DNA from: Tethya wilhelma
Lineage: Eukaryota > Porifera > Demospongiae > Tethyida > Tethyidae
Direction of reading: 5' to 3'
DNA: 64,000 nucleotides
NCBI GenBank assembly: GCA_964030475.1
Contig: CAXIPT010000001.1
Span: forward strand, 12,553,823 to 12,617,822
Made by a program: the position numbers and the translations under genes. Each line of letters starts with the position of its first letter. Position 1 is the stretch's first letter. Positions 882 to 59,399 of this stretch are shown in pieces. The notes under the pieces are model-generated. The model had not been told where the DNA came from. It saw only the letters and a list, made by a program, of their open reading frames with translations, and did not search any database.

Positions 882-3800
882 GTAAGTGTCGTAGCACATT
901 AATGGTTTTTTGAAACCAATAATATTATTATGTACAGATATTTGGAACTGATGAACTGTCAGGGGAATTGTCAGAGATAGCCGAGTCTGATAACAGAACT
1001 GAATCTAATCTTAATACCATTTCAGAAGGTTTTGAGGATATTGCCAACTTTGCATCTCTTCCAGAATCTCAGATACAGAATGATGTACGTACATAAGTTG
1101 CCAATGTACATGGTCAATCTCAAAGATGCTAATACTTTGTATGATGCATTATGTAGACACTTGTTCAGCTTGTTGAAATTGTTGACTTTGTCACAACATG
1201 GCCACAAGAGATTCTTCAGAATCAATCTTCAAGGTTAGACTTTATGTGTATTCAGCTATATGCTTTGTTAGCTCTATTGTTTGTTTATCTCAAGTATATA
1301 AAGCAGCTTGGATTTTAAGAACATCACAATCTAATATAATATCTTGATATTATTGTATATATCTGTACAGGATTGTTTCAGCATTTGAACAAACAATTGA
1401 AGGATTTGTGCAAAACAAAAATTTTGCTCGATTTGAGGCATTGTCCAACAATACAGCTGTCCTGGCCCAACAGGTATGTTGCTATGAGTGTTACGCTATA
1501 ATATTGTAGGGATTGCACAATGCTATGAGGAATTTCTTCTTGTAGATAAATGAGAGTGGATCTGTTGATTCTGCGTACACCTCACCTTTCGATTCCTTTA
1601 CAAGTATCTTCCTGCCTTCATCTGCTATAAACAACCTCACTGAAGCTGTCTTCTTCACTACCTATGCCAACTCATCTCTCTTTCCACTCAGAGATTCTGT
1701 AGATTTCAACAATTTTAGAGTTGGGTTGCCAATTATTGGAGCAACAATAGTGGGAATAGCGGAACCACTCGGAGGATTTCTAGAGCCAGTCATTGAGCTT
1801 GTCTTTAAGCTCGACCAACCTGTAAGATTTTTTTTTGTTGTTTTCTTGCATTCAGCTCATTGTGATTTTTTGTCAACATACAGACAAGTAATGCTACGTG
1901 TGCCTTTTGGGATGCTTCATCCAATGGTTAGCAAGCTAAATACCAGGTCCACAACTGAAAGTCTTTCTCTTCTCTTCCAGATGGACTCGGTCAATGGAGT
2001 ACAGTCAACGTCACCACTCTCGAATTGCTACGGAATGGAACAGTCACCTGTCAAAGTAGCCACTTGACCAACTTTGCTGTTCTTGTTGTAAGTGTATTGG
2101 TTTATGAAATGGTCATTTTTGTAGTAGATGACATTGCCTTAATTTTCAATATCCATGGATAAAGAGTAATGATCCATTAACATGTGGAGAGAATGAGACG
2201 CGAGATGAATTCATTTGTGTGTGTAGAAGTGGATTCAGACGTAATGACTCACGCTCTGAATGCACTGGTGAGTTATAGTCACTTTTTATTTTTGTCTCTG
2301 CATGTAAAGACTTCTCTTCTTGTGCTTGGAACTCTGAAGAATATGTTGTGTTTATGTTTCTACCTGTATACCATGTAGATATTGATGAGTGTATTGAGAG
2401 CCAACCCTGTGGGGAAAATGATGTTTGTTCGAACAATAATGGCAGTTACACTTGTGAGTGTGTGTATGTAGGCTTTACTGGAGTTGGAGAAACTTGTACT
2501 ATGTGATGTGATAATTATTAGTGCTGCCTTACAATAATAAAATTTATGTTTTGTATCTCTTCCCATCCAGGCAAAGGTTTCTGTCCATTTGAAACAACTA
2601 ATAGTCCTTTTGGGGAGTATATCTGGAATACAACTGAGCCCAATACAATAGCCACCCAAAATTGTCAGTTTGGCAGTGATAATGATACAGTGAGTGTGAC
2701 CCGGCAGTGTGATGCATTTGGAAACTGGAGTGCAGTGGATGACAGCCAATGCTTCACAAGAATCACTAATATGTTTCAAACTTTAGAAAGTGTAGGTATA
2801 GTGTCTGTACAAACATGCATGGTATAATAATATGGTGAATGTCTGATTTTGTGGTTTGCGATGTGAGTATATACATGTATGAATTAATGTACAGGCTGGA
2901 GTGAGTGTAGACAACCTTGTTGGACCAGTAAGCCAGCTCAACATGGTCGTGAGTGTGACGCCGGGAATGGACCAGACTCCAATGAATTTTGAGGTGGTGG
3001 TGGACATTCTGGTCAACACTAGCAACCTCATTGGTGCTGCTCTGCAACAGGGGGAGCCACCAGTCATCACCATGGAAGAGGGAATAGCTGTGGGTTATTG
3101 ACAGTACAAATGATGTGAGCATGTGACAAGGAATGGTTTCTTTCTATTTCAGATCTCATCATTTTTCTTAGAAATTATTGATGATGTCAGTGATTGGCCT
3201 TCAAATGCTACAGTTGATGACTCCCCTGAGTAAGTAGTATTGTCAGTATTTTCTATGTACTACTGTAGATCAGGAAATTTTCGCCATTAAAAATTTTTCA
3301 TCACGTGCGTGAGTGGCGAAAATTTAAATTGTATGGTGATCTTTACCGAATCGGTCAAAGTGGCGAAAATTAAAGGAACTGTGTCACTATATAAGCGGTG
3401 TTTTGTTACTAAAAATAAAATGTGTGACATTTTATGATGTTCTATGACCGTTTGTGACGTTTTTGTTTTGTTTCTTGCACGATCTGGGTACCACACCCGG
3501 CTATTAGCCCTGTGTATGTACGTATATTGCGCATTTGTCAACAAAAAATATCACAAACGTCACGTATTTTATTTTTGGTAACAAAACAGTGCTTATAATA
3601 TTATAGTGACACAGTTCTTTTAAACACGCGAAAATTAAACAAGTGAAAATTTATAGCGGCGAAAATTTCCCGATCTACGGTATCCCTTGCAACAGTTCTT
3701 GTACGTTGACATTCAGAGGGGGTCAAAAGACTTTCAACGAATACTATCACAATCTACAATCACCACATTAGCATATGAAAGAAATGATTTACCAGTTAAT

Positions 3801-32638: not shown

Positions 32639-35600
32639 CGTTAGCAGAACAAAAATGGCACTATGGTGGCTTCCCACTAGCGCTCTCTACGAGTGCTGAG
32701 GAAAGTTTTTGTGAGATTTAGACCTTGCATGCAGTTGGTAATCTGTCAGTGAGAGCCTTTGAGCAACGTTGAAGGCTTAATTTTGTTTGACTAGATTTTT
32801 ATAGTGAGCAACATTTTGTATTGTGTCTATGGGACAGTCGGCCCATTCCTACTATACGTACTACCGTACGTATGATAGAAGCATGCATTTGACATACCAG
32901 ACTCGATGGTGAATGGTACTGATACTGAAGTGAAGCTTGGATCCACTGAGTCTGGTAAACTAGAAATCTCTGCACACACACTAATTGAGGAATTAAACTC
33001 CATTTCTTGTATATTAACCTCTTGAGCAATTATTACAAAGTCATCACCTACAAATCACAAAAGAGAAGCATAACACAATTATTACTATATGTCATTCCAA
33101 AGCAGCACAGGTAATATATATAACCATGCATGCATTGTAACATTCAGGATGCACAAACACATATAACTAAATATGCATGCAACTGTACCAAATACTTACC
33201 ATCACTGCCAATAATTGTGATCTCAACTGATGAAGACAATCCAGTGTTGACACTTGGAATGCTACTTGTATTAATGTTAATCAAAAATGATTCATCTGGC
33301 TCATTGATTTCATCATCAACTAACAAAACTGTCAATGTTTGCATCAGTGGTCCTCCAGGAGTGAATTGTACATCAGGTAGAGCACTAAAATCGTCAATCT
33401 CTACAAATGCACATCATACTGATCACGTATACTGACCATAAGTCTCTACCAGTTATAACTGAATTTACCTGCTGAAATTAAAGTGCTAGAAAATGTCACA
33501 GTTATGTCAACATCAAGTTCAGATATTCCGGAAAGAGAAACCTCAATGTCAAGAGTTGTACCCTCAATATCAAACAAAGCAGATGGTCCACCAAAGTTCA
33601 CAGTAGCAACTACACAACAAAAGAGATCCACATTACAGAGTAATTAATATTGATAAGTTTTTTTTTTTTGGTTCAAAACCTGGCCTCATCCACAGGCTGT
33701 CTACGTGCTGCTATTGCTCAATAATAATTGACGTTAATGATCACGCACACGTTTGAAAACAATGCAGAGGGACTGGGAATCGAGGGTAGAACCATAGTAA
33801 AATGAAAGAGCACCTAACTATTGGCACCTTAACAATAGTACAAGCTCACACATGACAATGTAATATTAGCTACCAGAACAAACAGTGACAAAATGGGCAT
33901 GATTAGTAGGTGTGGCCTCAAAGCTTAGCACTCAGAGAAGCATTTGGATGAATGTCTCACAAATGCACACAATCACTTTATTCAGCACTTTTTGCAATGC
34001 CAAATGTGGATTGGACGTCAGGTGCTAAACTTTGTTGAATGAAGCCGTATAACATAAAATGAAAGCTTATTTCTTTTTTATGCTTTAACACTATGTATCA
34101 TATAGTGGGAAATTTTCGTTGGTACAAAATTTTATATAAATCGTTAAAAATATGCCAGAAAAATTTTCATTGTTATAAATTTTGTACAGTGCTTCCAAGG
34201 TAGTCAGGGAAATTTTTTAGCGAAATGAATTTAGTAACAATTCAAATGCATGCATTTACCAGTAAAAACATTCAAAATCTTGTCTCTTCAAGAATTTTTG
34301 CTTGCCAGTATAGCCAATACTTAAACATGAGTGCAGCGTGACGTCACTATGAAATTGTGATGTCTATTTTCTCTGTTTGATCAATTGACTACGTACGAGT
34401 ACAATTGTACGTGCGTGATGTCATGTATTTTGCTAGTTACATGCACACGTCATCAAATTTGTGCAAACATAGCTGGATGTGAATAGATCATTCCGTTTTC
34501 CAGCCGTGTTCTTGCTACGAATGAAACAAAGTTGATGAGACTTAGACTTAGACTTAATTAGGTTTTTTTCTTAACTTGTTTTGGTTTGCTTATACTGTTC
34601 TAAAAACTTTTGCACCTCAAAATTACATTTTTGCTACGTTCTACACAACTATCCACATATACTTTGGAGTTAAGAGTTCGGACATTTTTAACACCAAAAG
34701 TTGACCACCTACAGTATCTAGTTGATGCTCAAGGCTTTTTCTTAACGCGAAACGGTTCACTTATACCGTTCTAAAAGTATAGAGCAAGATCACTGCAATA
34801 ATTGAAGCCATATCTTGTACAGGAAGTAGCGATACGCCCCCTCAGTTTCCTGGTGAAAGCACCACACTGCAGTTACATGCCATCCTGTATTTTGCAAAAA
34901 AAATACAAAATCAAAAGTTTCCCAAACTATCTTGGAAGCACTGTTACAGTATACACGGCGCACGCTTGTATTGTGCATAATGTGGAAGTTAAATTTTCAG
35001 TTATAATTTTTGTATATTTGAAGGGCATACGAAAAATACAAAAATTTGCACCATACAAAAATTTCCCACTATACGGTAATTTATTTTGAAGAATAAGCAA
35101 GTTATGAGTGTTTAAATATAGACAGGTAGGGCAGATATCTGGGAAAAGAAAATCTAACATTCAGGGGGCTTTTTCCAGGAAACTATACAATTACTGAACT
35201 CAGCACTCTGGCTACTAACACAGAACCATGAGGGTTACAAACATACCAAGTTTCGTCAAATTCTGAGAAGGTCATGTGTGAACTTTTGTTGAACTGAAAT
35301 GGAATGATCCTAGAAATATACATGTGGGCGCTGGGTGGTAGCTTGTGTGCAGCTATAATATAACCACATATTTTACAGCTAAAGTATGGTAGTTTATCGA
35401 AGAATTTTTGAGCTTTTATACTCAACAAATGCTTGAAGACAGTCTTAAATGTCATTCCTGTTATAGAGCTGAGGCATTCATCTTTGCAATTAATTGCAGC
35501 ATGTATGGAGCAGATTCTACCAGACTACCTGGTTAGTCTATTAATTTCTACTGTCTCAAAAACGAATTTGTGACTATCAAAGGCTCTATCCTGGTACTAG

Positions 35601-53148: not shown

Positions 53149-55084
53149 ATTTGAATAACAAGTGTAGAAACACGAAGAACAATTCAAAGAAATAATAAGC
53201 TCGTATAATACCAAGCAAGCTGTCAGCAAATAAAAACTAGTTGTATTCAAAACCAGTGATTTTTGAACATATAATGGTACAGAAACTCTGTGTTATGCTT
53301 ATAACTGTCCAGGAACTCTATTATCTCGTCTATGTTTAATTTTGTTCAGTTTAGATAATTTCCTTTTTTCTAAAATTAAAGTCAATTAATTGCAATTTTT
53401 CATTAACAAAAAAACGCAAAAAAAAAATCGGAAATTTTTCATTTTATTATGTTCACCTTTACTTGGGAAAGATGACGATACAATTCTACTGGAGACACTG
53501 TTCTCCCAGTTTAAAGGTGCGATGGGCTCAAATTTGAATTTCAGGATTCATTTTGTTCTGTTTGAGTTAAAAATGGTACCCTTGCCCCACCAAGATCAGG
53601 ATGGAGGGATAAAAAGTTTCATGTAATACTTCAAAATCAAGAAATTTCTCAGATCAACACTGAAGCTACCAGCAATGATCCTGTAATGATTGACGACACT
53701 GGAACTTCACATTAGAAGATGGGGCTGTAGTGGTTCTTGACAGCAATCTCGCAAGTAACCACCTCAGGCAGTGTGTCAATGATCTAAAGCGAGAGCGATC
53801 ATCATGTTCGTCATTTGGTTCTTTGACAGAAATCAAAGTAGAGGAGGGTGATGATGTACAGTCAGATGAGGTATGTCATATAATTATCTCTATAATAGTT
53901 CAATGCGGTATAGTTGCGATTAAATTATTGTGAGTAACAAAATTTATCATTTTATGATCAGAAAGAAAATACCAACCAGAATACACCTGCAAAGAATGAT
54001 AAGCAAAGTCATCTGCATGTATCTATGATATAATTTATTTTTTTTTGCCAGTGAAATAATATAATTTTATTACAACTATCGTACTAATTACTTTGTTTCA
54101 TGTCCTTTTTACTTAAGGAATCCATCGATAATCCAACATTTTATAATAGTATTGTTACAATCTTTGGAAATGTTAACAATTAATATTCCATTGATTGGAA
54201 TGTACAAAATCAATGGAAATTATGTATAGAAAAGTGATGGAAAAGTCTGTATTTTACATTACTTTTTCAAGGATATTTACAAAGTTCCAGTAAATCATAT
54301 TATAAGCAAAGTTTTGTCCGTCCGTGTGTCCGTCCGTCCGTCCGTCCGTCCGTGTGTTACGGAGGGTCACCGGAAGTGATGTGACCTCGAACTAAAATCT
54401 GCTTTTTTTCTGGACTGTGGAGAATACAAGCTAGGAAAAGAGTGTCTAGAAAGCTAGCTTAGACAGTGCTAGCCTAGGATAAAACAACAAGCAATATAAG
54501 TATGGCTAGCTGTTTTTGAGATCGCTGACAAGGCTTACCAGTGGCATCTGTATCCAACAAAGAAGCGGGCTATGGGAGCCAATCTTCACAAATGAAGCGT
54601 AACGAGGTGAGAACACTCACTACTGGAAGTCTGCTTCTCTGTCGCTGTACACGAAAAACAGCTAGCCAGATAACAAGTTTCTTTTGCCAGCTGATTGCAA
54701 AAATGGCGCAAGTCGGAAAAGGGTCGTCTGTGACGTCACGTATTGAGGTAAATTGCTGAACTGGCCAAGGCAAACCAGAGAGTACTACCAAAGCAGTGCA
54801 TATACACATGCAGCATTGCAAGTGCTTATGCTTGCCAGTATTTATGACCATATTAAAAACTTTTATAAATTGTTCTACATAAACTAGTGATTGTTGTGTG
54901 TTGCTTCAACTAACTGCAAAGGTTGTCCTAAGCCAACTGATTGCAGGATATTATAGCATAACAAAATGCTCATCAATTTTATCTATGTTTACTATTAATG
55001 TTCATTATAGTAACTGTTAATTCTGTAAACATACATAAACAAGGAGTGGGCGAGCGAAGCGAGCCCCACTCCTTGTATAATATA
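53149..55084. other. Mostly unassigned, with small ORFs, a TCCG microsatellite and a hairpin
   Basis: Short + ORFs at 53390-53626 and 53730-53933 (NHLRQCVNDLKRERSSC, EIKVEEGDD) may be coding fragments but have no recognisable domain. 54317-54352 is a (TCCG)n run. 55042-55075 is a near-perfect hairpin, ACAAGGAGTGGG ... CCCACTCCTTGT, around GCGAGCGAAGCGAGC, just outside the transposon. Confidence 0.4.
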
Positions 55085-55377
55085 CAGTGCTTCCAAGGTA
55101 GTCAGGGAAATTTTTAATTTTGTTATATTTGTATAAAAATGAACTTAGTAACACTTGAAATGTATAAATTTATCAGTAAAAACCTTCAGAATCCTGTCTT
55201 TCCGAAAATTCTTGCTTGCCAGTATGCCAATACTTAAGCGCCTGCAGCGACACGTCACTATGAAATTGCTGACGAAACCAAGACCGGCACGTGACTTAAA
55301 TAGCTGGAATTTCCCTACGTACGTCAACAGTATGGTTTGAAGTAATTAAGTTTGAATGCAAGAAACAGCTGATTACG

Positions 55378-57195
55378 ATGACTAGCGATTACAGCCAAGC
55401 TACTACAACCGGTTCTTTTCAGAACCAGACCACAGCATCCTGTGGTTTGAAGAGGAGGTCAAGAGGTCTTAATGCTTTTTTGAAGGATGTCAGCAATGGC
55501 CAGTCTCCAGACTGTGCACCAAGAGCCAAGAGGACATGCAGTTCAATTGCAGCAGACAAGATCATGATGCAGTCACTGAAAGGTGCTCGTAGAGGTGTGT
55601 CACTTGCAAGTTCAGACTGTACAGAAATGCCGGATACAGAGGTAGAAATCGACACATTACAACAATTATTAAAACATGACCAACATACATTTGAGCATGG
55701 AAGTGAAAGTGTAAGTATGTACATTGATAGGAATGTGTCGGTCGAGTTACACAAAGCATTTGCAATTCAAGTTTTTAGCATTGCTGTTTCTACATGGAAG
55801 TTAGGCATCATGGATGCCTCACAAAAGGCATCTGACCTATGTGGTGTCTCAGCAAAAAGTATTCGAAAATGGGCAGCAGAATATTTTTTGGCTCTTGTTG
55901 GTGTGTCTGGGAGCAATGTTGATGATGAAATGATTGAGGATTTATTGTCTTCTGAGCGTGGTAAATCCTGTCGGAATCCACACAGTATTATTCATGATGT
56001 TGACTTCCGTGTGAATGCTCGAGAATTTGTACATAAATCAGCATACCAACGTGGATCACCCAACATGACCCTTCAAGACTTCAGAGATTGGGTGCATAAA
56101 GAATATAGACAAAATATTTGTGTTGAAACTGCGAGAGCATGGATGTATAACCTTGGCTTCTCAAGAAAAAATCACAAAAAAACAGTGTATTTTGATGGAC
56201 ATGAGCGGGATGACGTAATCCAGCACAGGCAGAAATATGTGGATACAATTTCGGACCTTGATAGACGCTGTATGTATCCTGGCCACACCCCAGTGTTACG
56301 ACCAGGTGAGAAGGCATTGATTCAAGTACATCATGATGAGTCTACGTTTTATTCCAATGCGGACCAGTCTTGCTACTGGGATGATGGCTCTCTTAGTATA
56401 TTAAAACAGAAGTCCTTGGGACAGTCAATTATGGTGTCTGACTTTGTCGAGGAGAACAGCTGTGACTACTTGAAGCATGAAGGTGATCAGGCAAGGCTTC
56501 TTCTAGAAACAAATACCGAAGGGTACTTTGACAATGACATGTTGTTGAAACAAGTGGACAAGGCTGTGGATATTTTTGAAAAGAAATACCCGGATGCCAT
56601 AGGTGTATTTATTTTCGACAATGCTCCGTCCCACAAGAAGTGTTCGGATGATTCACTTAACGCTGAAAAAATGAATGTACGACCTGGTGGTAAACAGCCC
56701 ATAATGCGGGACACAGTATTCAACGGGAAAATCCAGCAGATGATTCTTCCTGATGGTACCCCAAAGGGGATGAAACTTGTCCTAGAAGAAAGAGGAATAA
56801 GCACATCAAATATGAACGCAAAAAAAATGAGAGAAGAACTGAACAAATTTGATGATTTTATAAATAAAAAAACACTTTTGGAGGAAAAAATCGAAGCACG
56901 GGGACACATGTGTCTCTTCCTACCAAAATTCCATTGTGAATTGAACGCAATTGAAAGGTGTTGGTGCCATGCGAAAAAGCATACACGGGCTTATGCTAAT
57001 GGAAGCATTACAAGGCTTAGGAAAATAATTCCAGAAGGTCTCGACACTGTAACCAGTGATATGAATCACAAATTTTTTAATACAGTTCGCGACTATGTAA
57101 AGGCATACAAAGGTGGCAGTACTTGTAGAGATGTAGACCAAGTAGTAAAGCTCTACAAGTCACACCGAAGAGTATTTGAGAGTGAACAACAATGA
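55378..57195 (+). CDS. DDE transposase, Tc1/mariner-IS630-like with long D-E spacing, 605 aa
   Basis: Cuts and rejoins the element at its TIRs in the nucleus. Residues about 30-65 are basic. A helix-turn-helix lies near 125-170 (DASQKASDLCGVSAKSIRKW) and a second HTH near 235-270 (MTLQDFRDWVHKEY, VETARAWMYNLGF). The catalytic triad is D320 (VHHDEST), D414 (FIFDNAPSHKK) and E526 (HCELNAIERCW). The 112-residue step from second D to E exceeds the 34-39 of classic Tc1/mariner. It carries an insertion with RPGGKQPIMRDTVF and GTPKGMKLVLEERG, a signature I recall from unplaced transposases of fungi and invertebrates. The start is the first Met of an uninterrupted frame 293 bases inside the left TIR. 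All catalytic residues are present, so it may be active. Confidence 0.9.
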   Translation: MTSDYSQATTTGSFQNQTTASCGLKRRSRGLNAFLKDVSNGQSPDCAPRAKRTCSSIAADKIMMQSLKGARRGVSLASSDCTEMPDTEVEIDTLQQLLKHDQHTFEHGSESVSMYIDRNVSVELHKAFAIQVFSIAVSTWKLGIMDASQKASDLCGVSAKSIRKWAAEYFLALVGVSGSNVDDEMIEDLLSSERGKSCRNPHSIIHDVDFRVNAREFVHKSAYQRGSPNMTLQDFRDWVHKEYRQNICVETARAWMYNLGFSRKNHKKTVYFDGHERDDVIQHRQKYVDTISDLDRRCMYPGHTPVLRPGEKALIQVHHDESTFYSNADQSCYWDDGSLSILKQKSLGQSIMVSDFVEENSCDYLKHEGDQARLLLETNTEGYFDNDMLLKQVDKAVDIFEKKYPDAIGVFIFDNAPSHKKCSDDSLNAEKMNVRPGGKQPIMRDTVFNGKIQQMILPDGTPKGMKLVLEERGISTSNMNAKKMREELNKFDDFINKKTLLEEKIEARGHMCLFLPKFHCELNAIERCWCHAKKHTRAYANGSITRLRKIIPEGLDTVTSDMNHKFFNTVRDYVKAYKGGSTCRDVDQVVKLYKSHRRVFESEQQ

Positions 57196-57634
57196 ACTAA
57201 TCATGTGACCCGGCTCAGTACATCTCTGATTTCATGGAAGAAGAACAACTAGTTGTGAAACAACCATTGTTATTTACATCATCGGTTTTTTTCAAAACCA
57301 CCACATTTCAAAAGATTTACCTTAATTTTGATTAATAAGTAAAAAGCAAGCTATGACTAGGTTCAAATACCAACTTAAGAATTGTAGAAAAAAGCAAACA
57401 TGAATATTTGTATTGTGCCAATGGGCCACCTATGCCATTCCTGCATGTGTACCCAGTACTATACCGTACTGGGAAAGTATAGAGTAATATTTCCCTCTAA
57501 ATGGAGCACCCCTTCCTCTTCTACTTCATACACTGTGCATGTGTAGAATAAAGGTGAACCTTTTGACAATGTGGTGGTTTTGAAAAAAACCGGTGTGAGT
57601 TTTGAAAAAAAAACTGGTTGGTTTGGGGTTTTCT
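57196..57634. other. Intergenic tail-to-tail spacer inside the transposon
   Basis: Contains an AATAAA at about 57547 on the + strand that could end the transposase transcript. Words shared with 46690-46760 (GTACCCAGTACTATACCGTA, AATGGGCCACC) suggest a small repeat insertion here. No gene. Confidence 0.45.
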
Positions 57635-58522
57635 TTAGTTGAAAAGTTCGTCCATGAAATCAGGGATGGGAGAAACAGAGAAAGAGTTTGGTGGAGTAGG
57701 GTAAGGATTTGGTGAAGAGGAAAATTTTGGTGGAGTAGGGAAAGGATTAGGTAGAGGTGAAGATGATTTAGAAACAGACAGCGAGCTACAGGGAGGGGTG
57801 GGAGGCAAACATGGGTAGGTAAATTCCTTTGAATTCGAACGAGGGATTGGCGATGGGAGTGAGGTCGGAAACAGTTCGTCAAGAAAACCATCATCCCATG
57901 ACAAACGAGGTAAGGGTGAACAAGATGGAAGGACTGCTTTGGGAGAGGTTATTAGTAATTCACTGTTTAATTCACGATCATGGAAATGAAACTGGCCAAA
58001 CTGTAAATGATGGAGAACAGCTGTGGCTCCCTCCAATGCTTCTTGAATTGGTTCGAGCAGAGATGGCTTCCCTGTAACTTGGACAGAGATGTCAACAACA
58101 CGAAAGCGCCAATTCCGGTTGCCATCTACTGCTCGAGAGTATGGCCTTGACAGGACACGTCTGCAAGAAATTGAAAAAAGGGCCTGGGTTCAAGCTGGCA
58201 CTACGCTGCATGCCAGTATGTACACTTTATATACTCACCCTGAGATGTGAAAGGGTCCAAGAAGCAATGGTGAGAGCCATTCAGCTGCCTCTGCTGCCAC
58301 ATGCCCAAGTTTCCAGCTACTACTGCCACTATTAATCACCCTGACCTCAACACAGTTAGGATCCAACAGATGGTTGGGCCTTCTTACAAACCTTAGTCTG
58401 TGTCCAAAATCCACCCCACCAGCCTCCATATCATAAAACTTCACTCCCCTGGACTGCGTAACGAAGTACGCCAGCTCAGTTGCCTCACCGTCCATTGCTT
58501 TGCATTCACTATTCACGATCAC
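57635..58522 (-). CDS. HIRAN-domain protein carried by the transposon, 269 aa, two exons
   Basis: Exon 1 is 58239-58522 and exon 2 is 57635-58160. Donor GTGAGT and acceptor TTGCAG are good, and the join keeps frame (ISGR). Residues about 20-95 carry FGHRLRFVRRPNHLLDPNCV, EVRVINSG and WKLGHVAAEAAEWLSPLL. This is the HIRAN pattern: a hydrophobic strand, RxPxNxxDPNxVxV and a GHV that opens the next strand. HIRAN domains (for example in HLTF) bind 3' ends of single-stranded DNA at stalled forks. A middle part (about 105-155, FRVVDISVQVTGKPSLLEPI) is unrecognised. The Ser/Pro-rich C-terminus has FLDELFP and ends FMDELFN. Possible roles are recognition of cleaved transposon ends or of host repair. 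A start at the internal MDGEATELAYF is also possible. Confidence 0.75.
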
Positions 58523-59130
58523 TGTACTGTACCCACGTGCGGTTGCTTGACGTCACTTATTTAGTTACGTATGTGCATACGTCATCAAAATGTGCAATAG
58601 GCGCACAAATTAGCTGGATGCGAATTAATCGTTCCGTTTTCCAGTCGTGCTCTTGCTACAAACGAAACAAAGTTGATGGAACTTAAACTACATGCACCCC
58701 CTATGCGCAACTGTGAAGTTTTTTCTTAATGCGTTTTAGTTTGCTTGTACTGTTCTAAAAACTTTTGCACCTCAAAATTACAACATTTTTGCTACGTTCT
58801 GCACAACTATCCGCATATACTTTGGAGTTAAGAGTTCGGACCAACGCCAAAAGTTGACCACCTACAGTATCTAGTTGATGCTCAAGGCTTTTTTCTTAAC
58901 GCGAAACGGTTCGCTTATAACGTTCTAAAAGTGTAGAGCAAAATCACTGCAATAATTGAAGCCATATCTCGCACAGGAAGTGGTCATACGCCCCCTCTTT
59001 CCTGGTGAAGCACCACAAGTGAGCAATGTTTGTATGTGTATCATCAAACTGCAGTTACATGCTATGAGTGTCTCTGTATTTTGCAAAAAGTACAAAATCA
59101 AAAGTTTCCCTGACTACCTTGGAAGCACTG

Positions 59131-59399
59131 TATGCAAGAATTTCCCCGGCTGTTAATTTGTGCATGCATGTAGTAAACAATAAAATCCCCATCAATATAT
59201 CCCAAAACTAGCTCTTCATCAGACACCGAAAGCAGTGAAGTTATTCCAATTAAGAGGAGGCACCTATCGAGTGACTATCAAATGTAGCAAATTAATCAGG
59301 GAAGATGTGAAAGATATCAAGATAGAGTTGTTAAGGGCTTTCACACTAACATAGTTTATGCGAATTCCTCTTGCATTGCGATGTCTTCTCTATGATACC
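59131..59399 (+). other. Flank of the transposon, probable upstream part of the RING-like fragment
   Basis: 59210-59283 can be read SSDTESSEVIPIKRRHLSSD before a stop. This resembles the low-complexity leader that precedes the RING-like domain in related invertebrate proteins. The frame is not continuous with the next entry. Confidence 0.35.

Follow-up and report, generated by a model that had tools for sequence, protein, structure and literature searches.

A HIRAN-domain gene paired with a Sailor-like transposase in the sponge Tethya wilhelma

A window of 64,000 nucleotides from the genome of the sponge Tethya wilhelma (assembly GCA_964030475.1, contig CAXIPT010000001.1, positions 12,553,823 to 12,617,822) harbors a TA-flanked cut-and-paste transposon at window positions 55085-59130 that combines a Sailor-like DDE transposase with a spliced gene for a HIRAN-domain protein. 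In this study, we closely examined this two-gene element and its relatives and conclude that the HIRAN gene is probably a working part of the transposon and not a passenger, since selection keeps the gene in related copies and HIRAN genes recur beside a different group of transposons, the pogo type. Elements of the mariner and pogo types in eukaryotes are generally regarded as having a single gene and relying on the host for repair of their ends. Judged by titles and the opening parts of abstracts in the open-access literature, no report of HIRAN genes in transposons was found.

HIRAN gene and its pairing with the transposase

The T. wilhelma genome (124.6 Mb in 204 contigs) yielded 82 tblastn matches to the window transposase, a good number of which, though not all, were examined. 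A transposase tree was calculated from 29 locus rows (including L035) and 68 public proteins, all with at least 150 aligned residues. One split, with a support of 1.0, separates the HIRAN-less own copies and the outgroup P0120 from all others. On the window side lies a clade of 16 own copies (the window copy, L006, L015-L020, L022, L025-L027 and L029-L032), 14 of which carry a HIRAN gene downstream of and convergent to the transposase gene. Besides the window gene itself, 12 of these were found by tblastn with the window protein and the one in L022 only by a profile built from public matches and five own copies (28.4 bits). The two clade copies lacking the gene are fragments: the transposase of L016 breaks off at residue 457, and that of L030 spans residues 331 to 510. 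Across the split, none of 12 own copies has a HIRAN gene; 10 of them were fairly tested, as L040 and L042 have less than 1 kb of downstream sequence. Transposase places that were not examined are left out of the clade counts, and one of them, on C93, adjoins a HIRAN match. An earlier note on this DNA, made from the sequence alone, had asked whether full-length copies always carry both genes. Within the clade none of those examined lacks HIRAN, and HIRAN-less copies with both terminal inverted repeats (TIRs) occur only outside it (L021, L023 and L024, whose terminal letters also differ). Pairing across the clade supports the view that the transposase and the spliced HIRAN gene form a stable unit. 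Later insertion of the HIRAN gene was rejected as an explanation, since the gene occupies the same place in diverged copies.

The earlier note had described the second gene as spliced, with two exons and a product of 269 amino acids. Its convergent orientation and two exons stand, but the length does not, as that frame opens at a GTG (58522), while the first in-frame ATG lies at 58495 and gives a predicted product of 260 amino acids. All five modeled copies accommodate a GT-AG intron at the same codon and in the same phase, with lengths of 78 bp (window), 70 bp (L015), 65 bp (L017), 214 bp (L018) and 65 bp (L020); splice sites were picked by eye in the printed sequence, and the joined frames were then read. 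This conservation across copies supports the intron in the predicted gene model. The predicted spliced frames are open over 260 amino acids in the window copy, 153 in L015, 146 in L017 and 192 in L018, whereas the one in L020 stops at 97; the remaining HIRAN copies contain stops or gaps.

Comparison of the window HIRAN gene with that of L018 gave a nonsynonymous divergence (dN) of 0.21 and a synonymous divergence (dS) of 0.97. In the remaining distant pairs, synonymous sites approach or exceed saturation, with proportions of differing sites of 0.77 to 0.95 for synonymous (pS) and 0.24 to 0.36 for nonsynonymous positions (pN). For 9 of 10 HIRAN pairs, pN reached or exceeded pS in none of 500 bootstraps; for the near-identical pair L017-L020 it did so in 344 of 500. 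Between the window copy and L015, the values for the HIRAN gene (pN 0.239, pS 0.774) and the transposase gene (0.245, 0.761) are alike. By these codon comparisons, the predicted HIRAN gene is held by selection in the clade as strictly as the transposase. A chance open reading frame (ORF) is excluded because the HIRAN copies are under purifying selection.

The HIRAN pattern seen in the earlier note was borne out by profile search, as the window protein matched Pfam HIRAN with 33.1 bits against a curated cut-off of 24.7 (E = 4.9e-8), and the fold agrees. L015, L017 and L018 also passed the cut-off. Of the 14 HIRAN-carrying clade copies, five (L019, L022, L029, L031 and L032) are missing from the matches above it and were detected by tblastn or our home-built profile. 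No RING or SNF2 domain was present among the Pfam matches of the window HIRAN protein. A PDB search with the single HIRAN sequence matched Talin as the sole molecule (best E = 0.08), while HIRAN profiles matched HLTF only, and weakly. Compared to HLTF and Rad5, the transposon protein has the same domain by profile and fold, with positions 71 to 73, 94 and 110 mostly retained or conservatively changed, but it is a small stand-alone protein with 26% identity across the core. We take R71, D94 and H110 of HLTF to line its 3'-end-binding pocket. Among 125 Sailor-type HIRANs (the best 120 of 222 profile matches plus five own copies), the equivalent positions hold K at 71 in 115, F at 72 in 118, D at 94 in 121 and H at 110 in 105 proteins; position 91 is N in 65 and H in 50.

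The C-terminal tail differs between copies. In the window protein it contains two acidic stretches, DDGFLDELF and DFMDELF (57641-57895, minus strand), which resemble short protein-binding motifs; the former is also present in L018, and neither was seen in L015, L017 or L020. A copy of the motif that follows the HIRAN stop codon lies at 57290-57323, inside the inverted duplication just past the transposase stop, and motifs resembling it (3 to 9 mismatches of 34, in HIRAN sense) are found in L015, L018, L019, L026 and L031.

Public proteins were searched with the transposase (best 120 of 325 matches) and with the HIRAN profile (best 120 of 222 matches at E up to 10), while the single HIRAN sequence gave one match. 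Of these 241 protein matches, P0097 alone reaches 95% identity to an examined locus (L035). Seven contig sizes are shared by the transposase and HIRAN lists (2364, 3798, 6087, 8041, 524245, 1707656 and 1863786), i.e., four small and three large coincidences, compared to 0.47 and 0.0008 expected when sizes were jittered by up to 10%. The observed numbers were reached in 6 of 5000 trials for small and in 0 of 5000 for large contigs. Equal size is an indirect sign of one contig and, on long contigs, says nothing of adjacency. The other transposases among the best 120 have no partner among the best 120 HIRAN matches, which is no proof of absence, as each list ends at its 120th match and exon ORFs may be uncalled. 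Across the seven equal-size pairs plus eight own pairs, HIRAN identity correlates with transposase identity (r = 0.56; matched in 0 of 2000 permutations).

HIRAN genes beside pogo-type transposons

A genome-wide search returned 45 HIRAN matches above the cut-off and 150 scored matches to DDE_1. Of the 45 HIRAN matches, 25 have a DDE_1 match no more than 3 kb away (0.35 expected by chance), 14 in convergent, 6 in divergent and 5 in tandem order. Nine others are within 3 kb of a Sailor-like transposase, all convergent, and 11 are near neither. That nine are counted here and 14 in the clade is due to the five copies that are not among the Pfam matches above the cut-off. This link of HIRAN genes with pogo-type transposons was missed in the earlier note.

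Seven of these pogo-type loci were examined, and Pfam HIRAN was confirmed in all of them. The two genes are convergent in L046, L047, L051 and L052, divergent in L048 and L049, and tandem in L050. DDE_1 scored above its cut-off in L048, L049, L050 and L052; in L046 and L047 the transposase frame is broken in two pieces, one of which passes the cut-off in each locus, and the DDE_1 assignment of L051 was taken from the genome-wide match list. In L049, both genes are enclosed by TIRs (CAGTGGAACCTCC) with TA flanks. The transposases belong to a different, pogo/Tigger-type group with DDE_1 and, in L048 and L049, CENP-B_N and HTH_Tnp_Tc5 domains. Two recruitments of HIRAN are likelier than one transfer, since the pogo-type HIRANs form a separate branch (support 0.999) and are 20 to 29% identical to the window HIRAN; with some 60 residues in the tree, this falls short of proof.

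In L052, an ORF with a Ulp1-type Peptidase_C48 match (2849-3541, minus strand; 23.4 bits, cut-off 20.7) separates the DDE_1 transposase from the HIRAN gene, with a slight overlap on either side, and is a possible third component. In L044 (C43:137892) and L045 (C3:12363262), HIRAN genes adjoin a convergent ORF that looks PB1-like by eye and has no Pfam match; no listed transposase was found within 3 kb of either.

Element ends, transposase and relation to Sailor

The limits of the element given in the earlier note proved exact, and its near-identical TIRs and TA flanks were recovered (Table 1). Both arms begin with CAGTGC, are identical in their 26 outermost bases and match at 42 of 47 positions. 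TA is present on both sides of all four full-length clade copies (window, L015, L018 and L020), and their ends read CAGTG, except for CTGTG at the left end of L020. The left flank (54965-55084) is repetitive: 39 more rows match it, and almost all of them stop no more than about 11 bases from where the element is inserted. With 40 of 366 candidates scored for this repeat, no empty site for the window copy turned up, as the repeat copies break off near the insertion point. Elsewhere in the window, a 757-bp relative built from the element's two ends only lies at 34187-34943, and additional copies of about 800 bp are present in the genome.

Table 1. Features of the two-gene element, in window positions
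Feature	Position	Strand	Remarks
TA flank, left	55083..55084	.	
Left TIR, starts CAGTGCTTCC...	55085..55131	+	26 leading bases equal to right arm
Transposase gene, 605 amino acids	55378..57195	+	D320/D414/E526 (DD111E), HCELN-x-IE motif; predicted Mos1/Sleeping Beauty-like catalytic fold
Inverted duplication of HIRAN gene 3' end	57221..57323	.	Partners 57568-57595 and 57647-57668
Motif TTTCAAAACCACCACATT..TCAAAAG	57552..57585	-	After HIRAN stop
HIRAN gene, exon 2 with stop	57635..58160	-	End of conserved core, then a tail rich in Pro and Ser that bears two acidic motifs of DELF type
Intron, 78 bp, GTGAGT...TTGCAG	58161..58238	-	Equal position and phase in L015, L017, L018, L020
HIRAN gene, exon 1 from first ATG	58239..58495	-	Most of HIRAN domain
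Right TIR	59084..59130	-	
TA flank, right	59131..59132	.	

The reading frame of the transposase is open throughout, as the earlier note had it, and its catalytic residues are separated by 93 (D320-D414) and 111 residues (D414-E526). All three are invariant in an alignment of 23 sequences (the window protein and 22 of its 325 protein matches). Pfam DDE_3 scored 26.2 bits, just below its cut-off of 28.6, and a sequence search of the PDB gave no match to the window transposase. With a structure model of the transposase (predicted local distance difference test 76.5, predicted template modeling score 0.55), all 11 Foldseek matches at E ≤ 0.001 were Mos1, Sleeping Beauty or Metnase. By this model, the transposase is a DDE/D enzyme of the IS630-Tc1-mariner type with a predicted Mos1/Sleeping Beauty-like catalytic fold. 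The DDE transposase seen in the earlier note stands, but the note missed that the long D-to-E spacer and the HCELN-x-IE motif make the element Sailor-like rather than a standard Tc1/mariner transposon.

According to the available text of PMC8533490, Sailor (DD82E) likewise has a long second spacer (DD78E to DD111E reported), the HCELN-x-IE motif at the catalytic E and a similar element length (4115 bp in one sponge element). The window motifs QVHHDES, VFIFDNA and HCELNAIER compare with I/VVYLDET, VIIMDNA and HCELNPIEL in Sailor. In contrast, the target duplication of Sailor is mostly TATA and its TIRs usually start with GT or CC (PMC8533490), and none of the four full-length clade copies is flanked by TATA on both sides. 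Because TA flanks and CAGTGC ends do not match the TATA and GT of Sailor, we call the element Sailor-like by spacer and motif rather than assigning it to Sailor itself. The terms "HIRAN," "accessory" and "second ORF" do not occur in the main text of PMC8533490, which describes no second gene.

The ends of the HIRAN-less copies L021, L023 and L024 read TATA|GTGC. L021 sits in a repeat family that appears kelch-like by eye. At this single site, all four paralogous empty sites examined (L053-L056; 75 to 77% identical, with other indels present) have two bases (TG), compared to four in the filled site when joined with one TATA. Since the empty sites carry two bases and not four, the duplication at L021 is probably TA, with a TIR starting TAGTGC. 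If this pattern were general, the TATA of Sailor would be TA plus two TIR bases, and the HIRAN and HIRAN-less sets would differ there by those two letters only.

No relative turned up in a scan of viral contigs. Genome contigs yielded three loci, including L035 on a contig of a sponge-symbiont metagenome-assembled genome, which stops 389 bases past the transposase match and is too short for a HIRAN check.

Possible roles of the HIRAN protein

Cleavage by DDE transposases leaves 3'-OH ends. The HIRAN domain of HLTF binds a 3'-OH single-stranded DNA end and is required for removal of Cas9 after cleavage, and the isolated domain is a dominant-negative block of HLTF-driven Cas9 eviction, as stated in the available parts of PMC11237066. 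From these two points we infer an end-binding accessory. The HIRAN protein would bind the free 3' ends left by transposase cutting, and its occupancy would prevent eviction of the post-cleavage complex by HLTF-type translocases and end-processing enzymes of the host; alternatively, it might bias end repair in the element's favor. The earlier note had suggested that the protein may handle excised ends or steer host fork repair; we find its reading partly supported, in the pairing of the two genes, and treat these roles as proposals. The proposed binding, competition with HLTF and effect on transposition make up a reading that we hold tentatively, as plausible but short of probable. Incomplete conservation of the HLTF pocket weighs against it, as positions 90 and 93 vary, with Y93 in 11 of the 125 proteins. 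In HLTF, Y72 and Y93 stack on the bound dinucleotide (available text of PMC4666394); the positions Y72, Y93, N90 and N91 were taken from the accessible parts of PMC11237066 and PMC4666394.

The same partial loss of the pocket would suit a regulator or anti-silencing factor that binds element ends or chromatin and sets expression or copy number, the link to DNA ends being ancestral only. The variable tail, with acidic DELF-type motifs in the window copy and L018, also points in this direction, but between 105 and 121 of the 125 proteins retain 71 K, 72 F, 94 D and 110 H, which would be unexpected were end binding lost. The main rival to end protection is targeting to replication, in which HIRAN would deliver the excised element or the transposase to forks that have stalled or reversed, or to nascent 3' ends, and would thereby couple transposition to replication, as proposed for clamp-binding transposases. 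The HLTF HIRAN domain acts in fork remodeling (PMC4666394, in part). Sliding-clamp binding by a transposon protein was first found for the pogo transposase, which binds PCNA (PMC5371812, in part), and the second transposon group in which HIRAN genes occur here is the pogo type. No PIP-box pattern, however, was seen in the window transposase or HIRAN protein. We consider targeting to replication unlikely and a regulatory role slightly less likely again.

Very improbable is a host HIRAN gene that was captured once and hitchhikes without function for the element. Elements of the separate HIRAN-less set manage without the gene, and we know of no second gene in standard Tc1/mariner elements. Against such a passenger stand strong purifying selection, co-divergence with the transposase, the presence of the gene in 14 of 16 clade copies and the second association; selection on the HIRAN gene and its identity correlation with the transposase led us to reject it.

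By extension of the end-binding proposal, cut-and-paste transposons of eukaryotes could have taken up stand-alone HIRANs repeatedly as a class of accessory proteins, on two occasions or more (in Sailor-like and in pogo-type elements). Such HIRANs would guard 3' ends and, much like a counter-defense, would blind host HLTF-type sensors or route breaks to favorable repair. We regard this generalization as doubtful. If true, an accessory gene of the DNA-end type, kept by selection and recurring with two groups of transposases, would turn the host's repair of transposon breaks into a contested step. It would also offer a direct test of how elements manage their 3' ends, and natural stand-alone HIRANs as possible HLTF antagonists.

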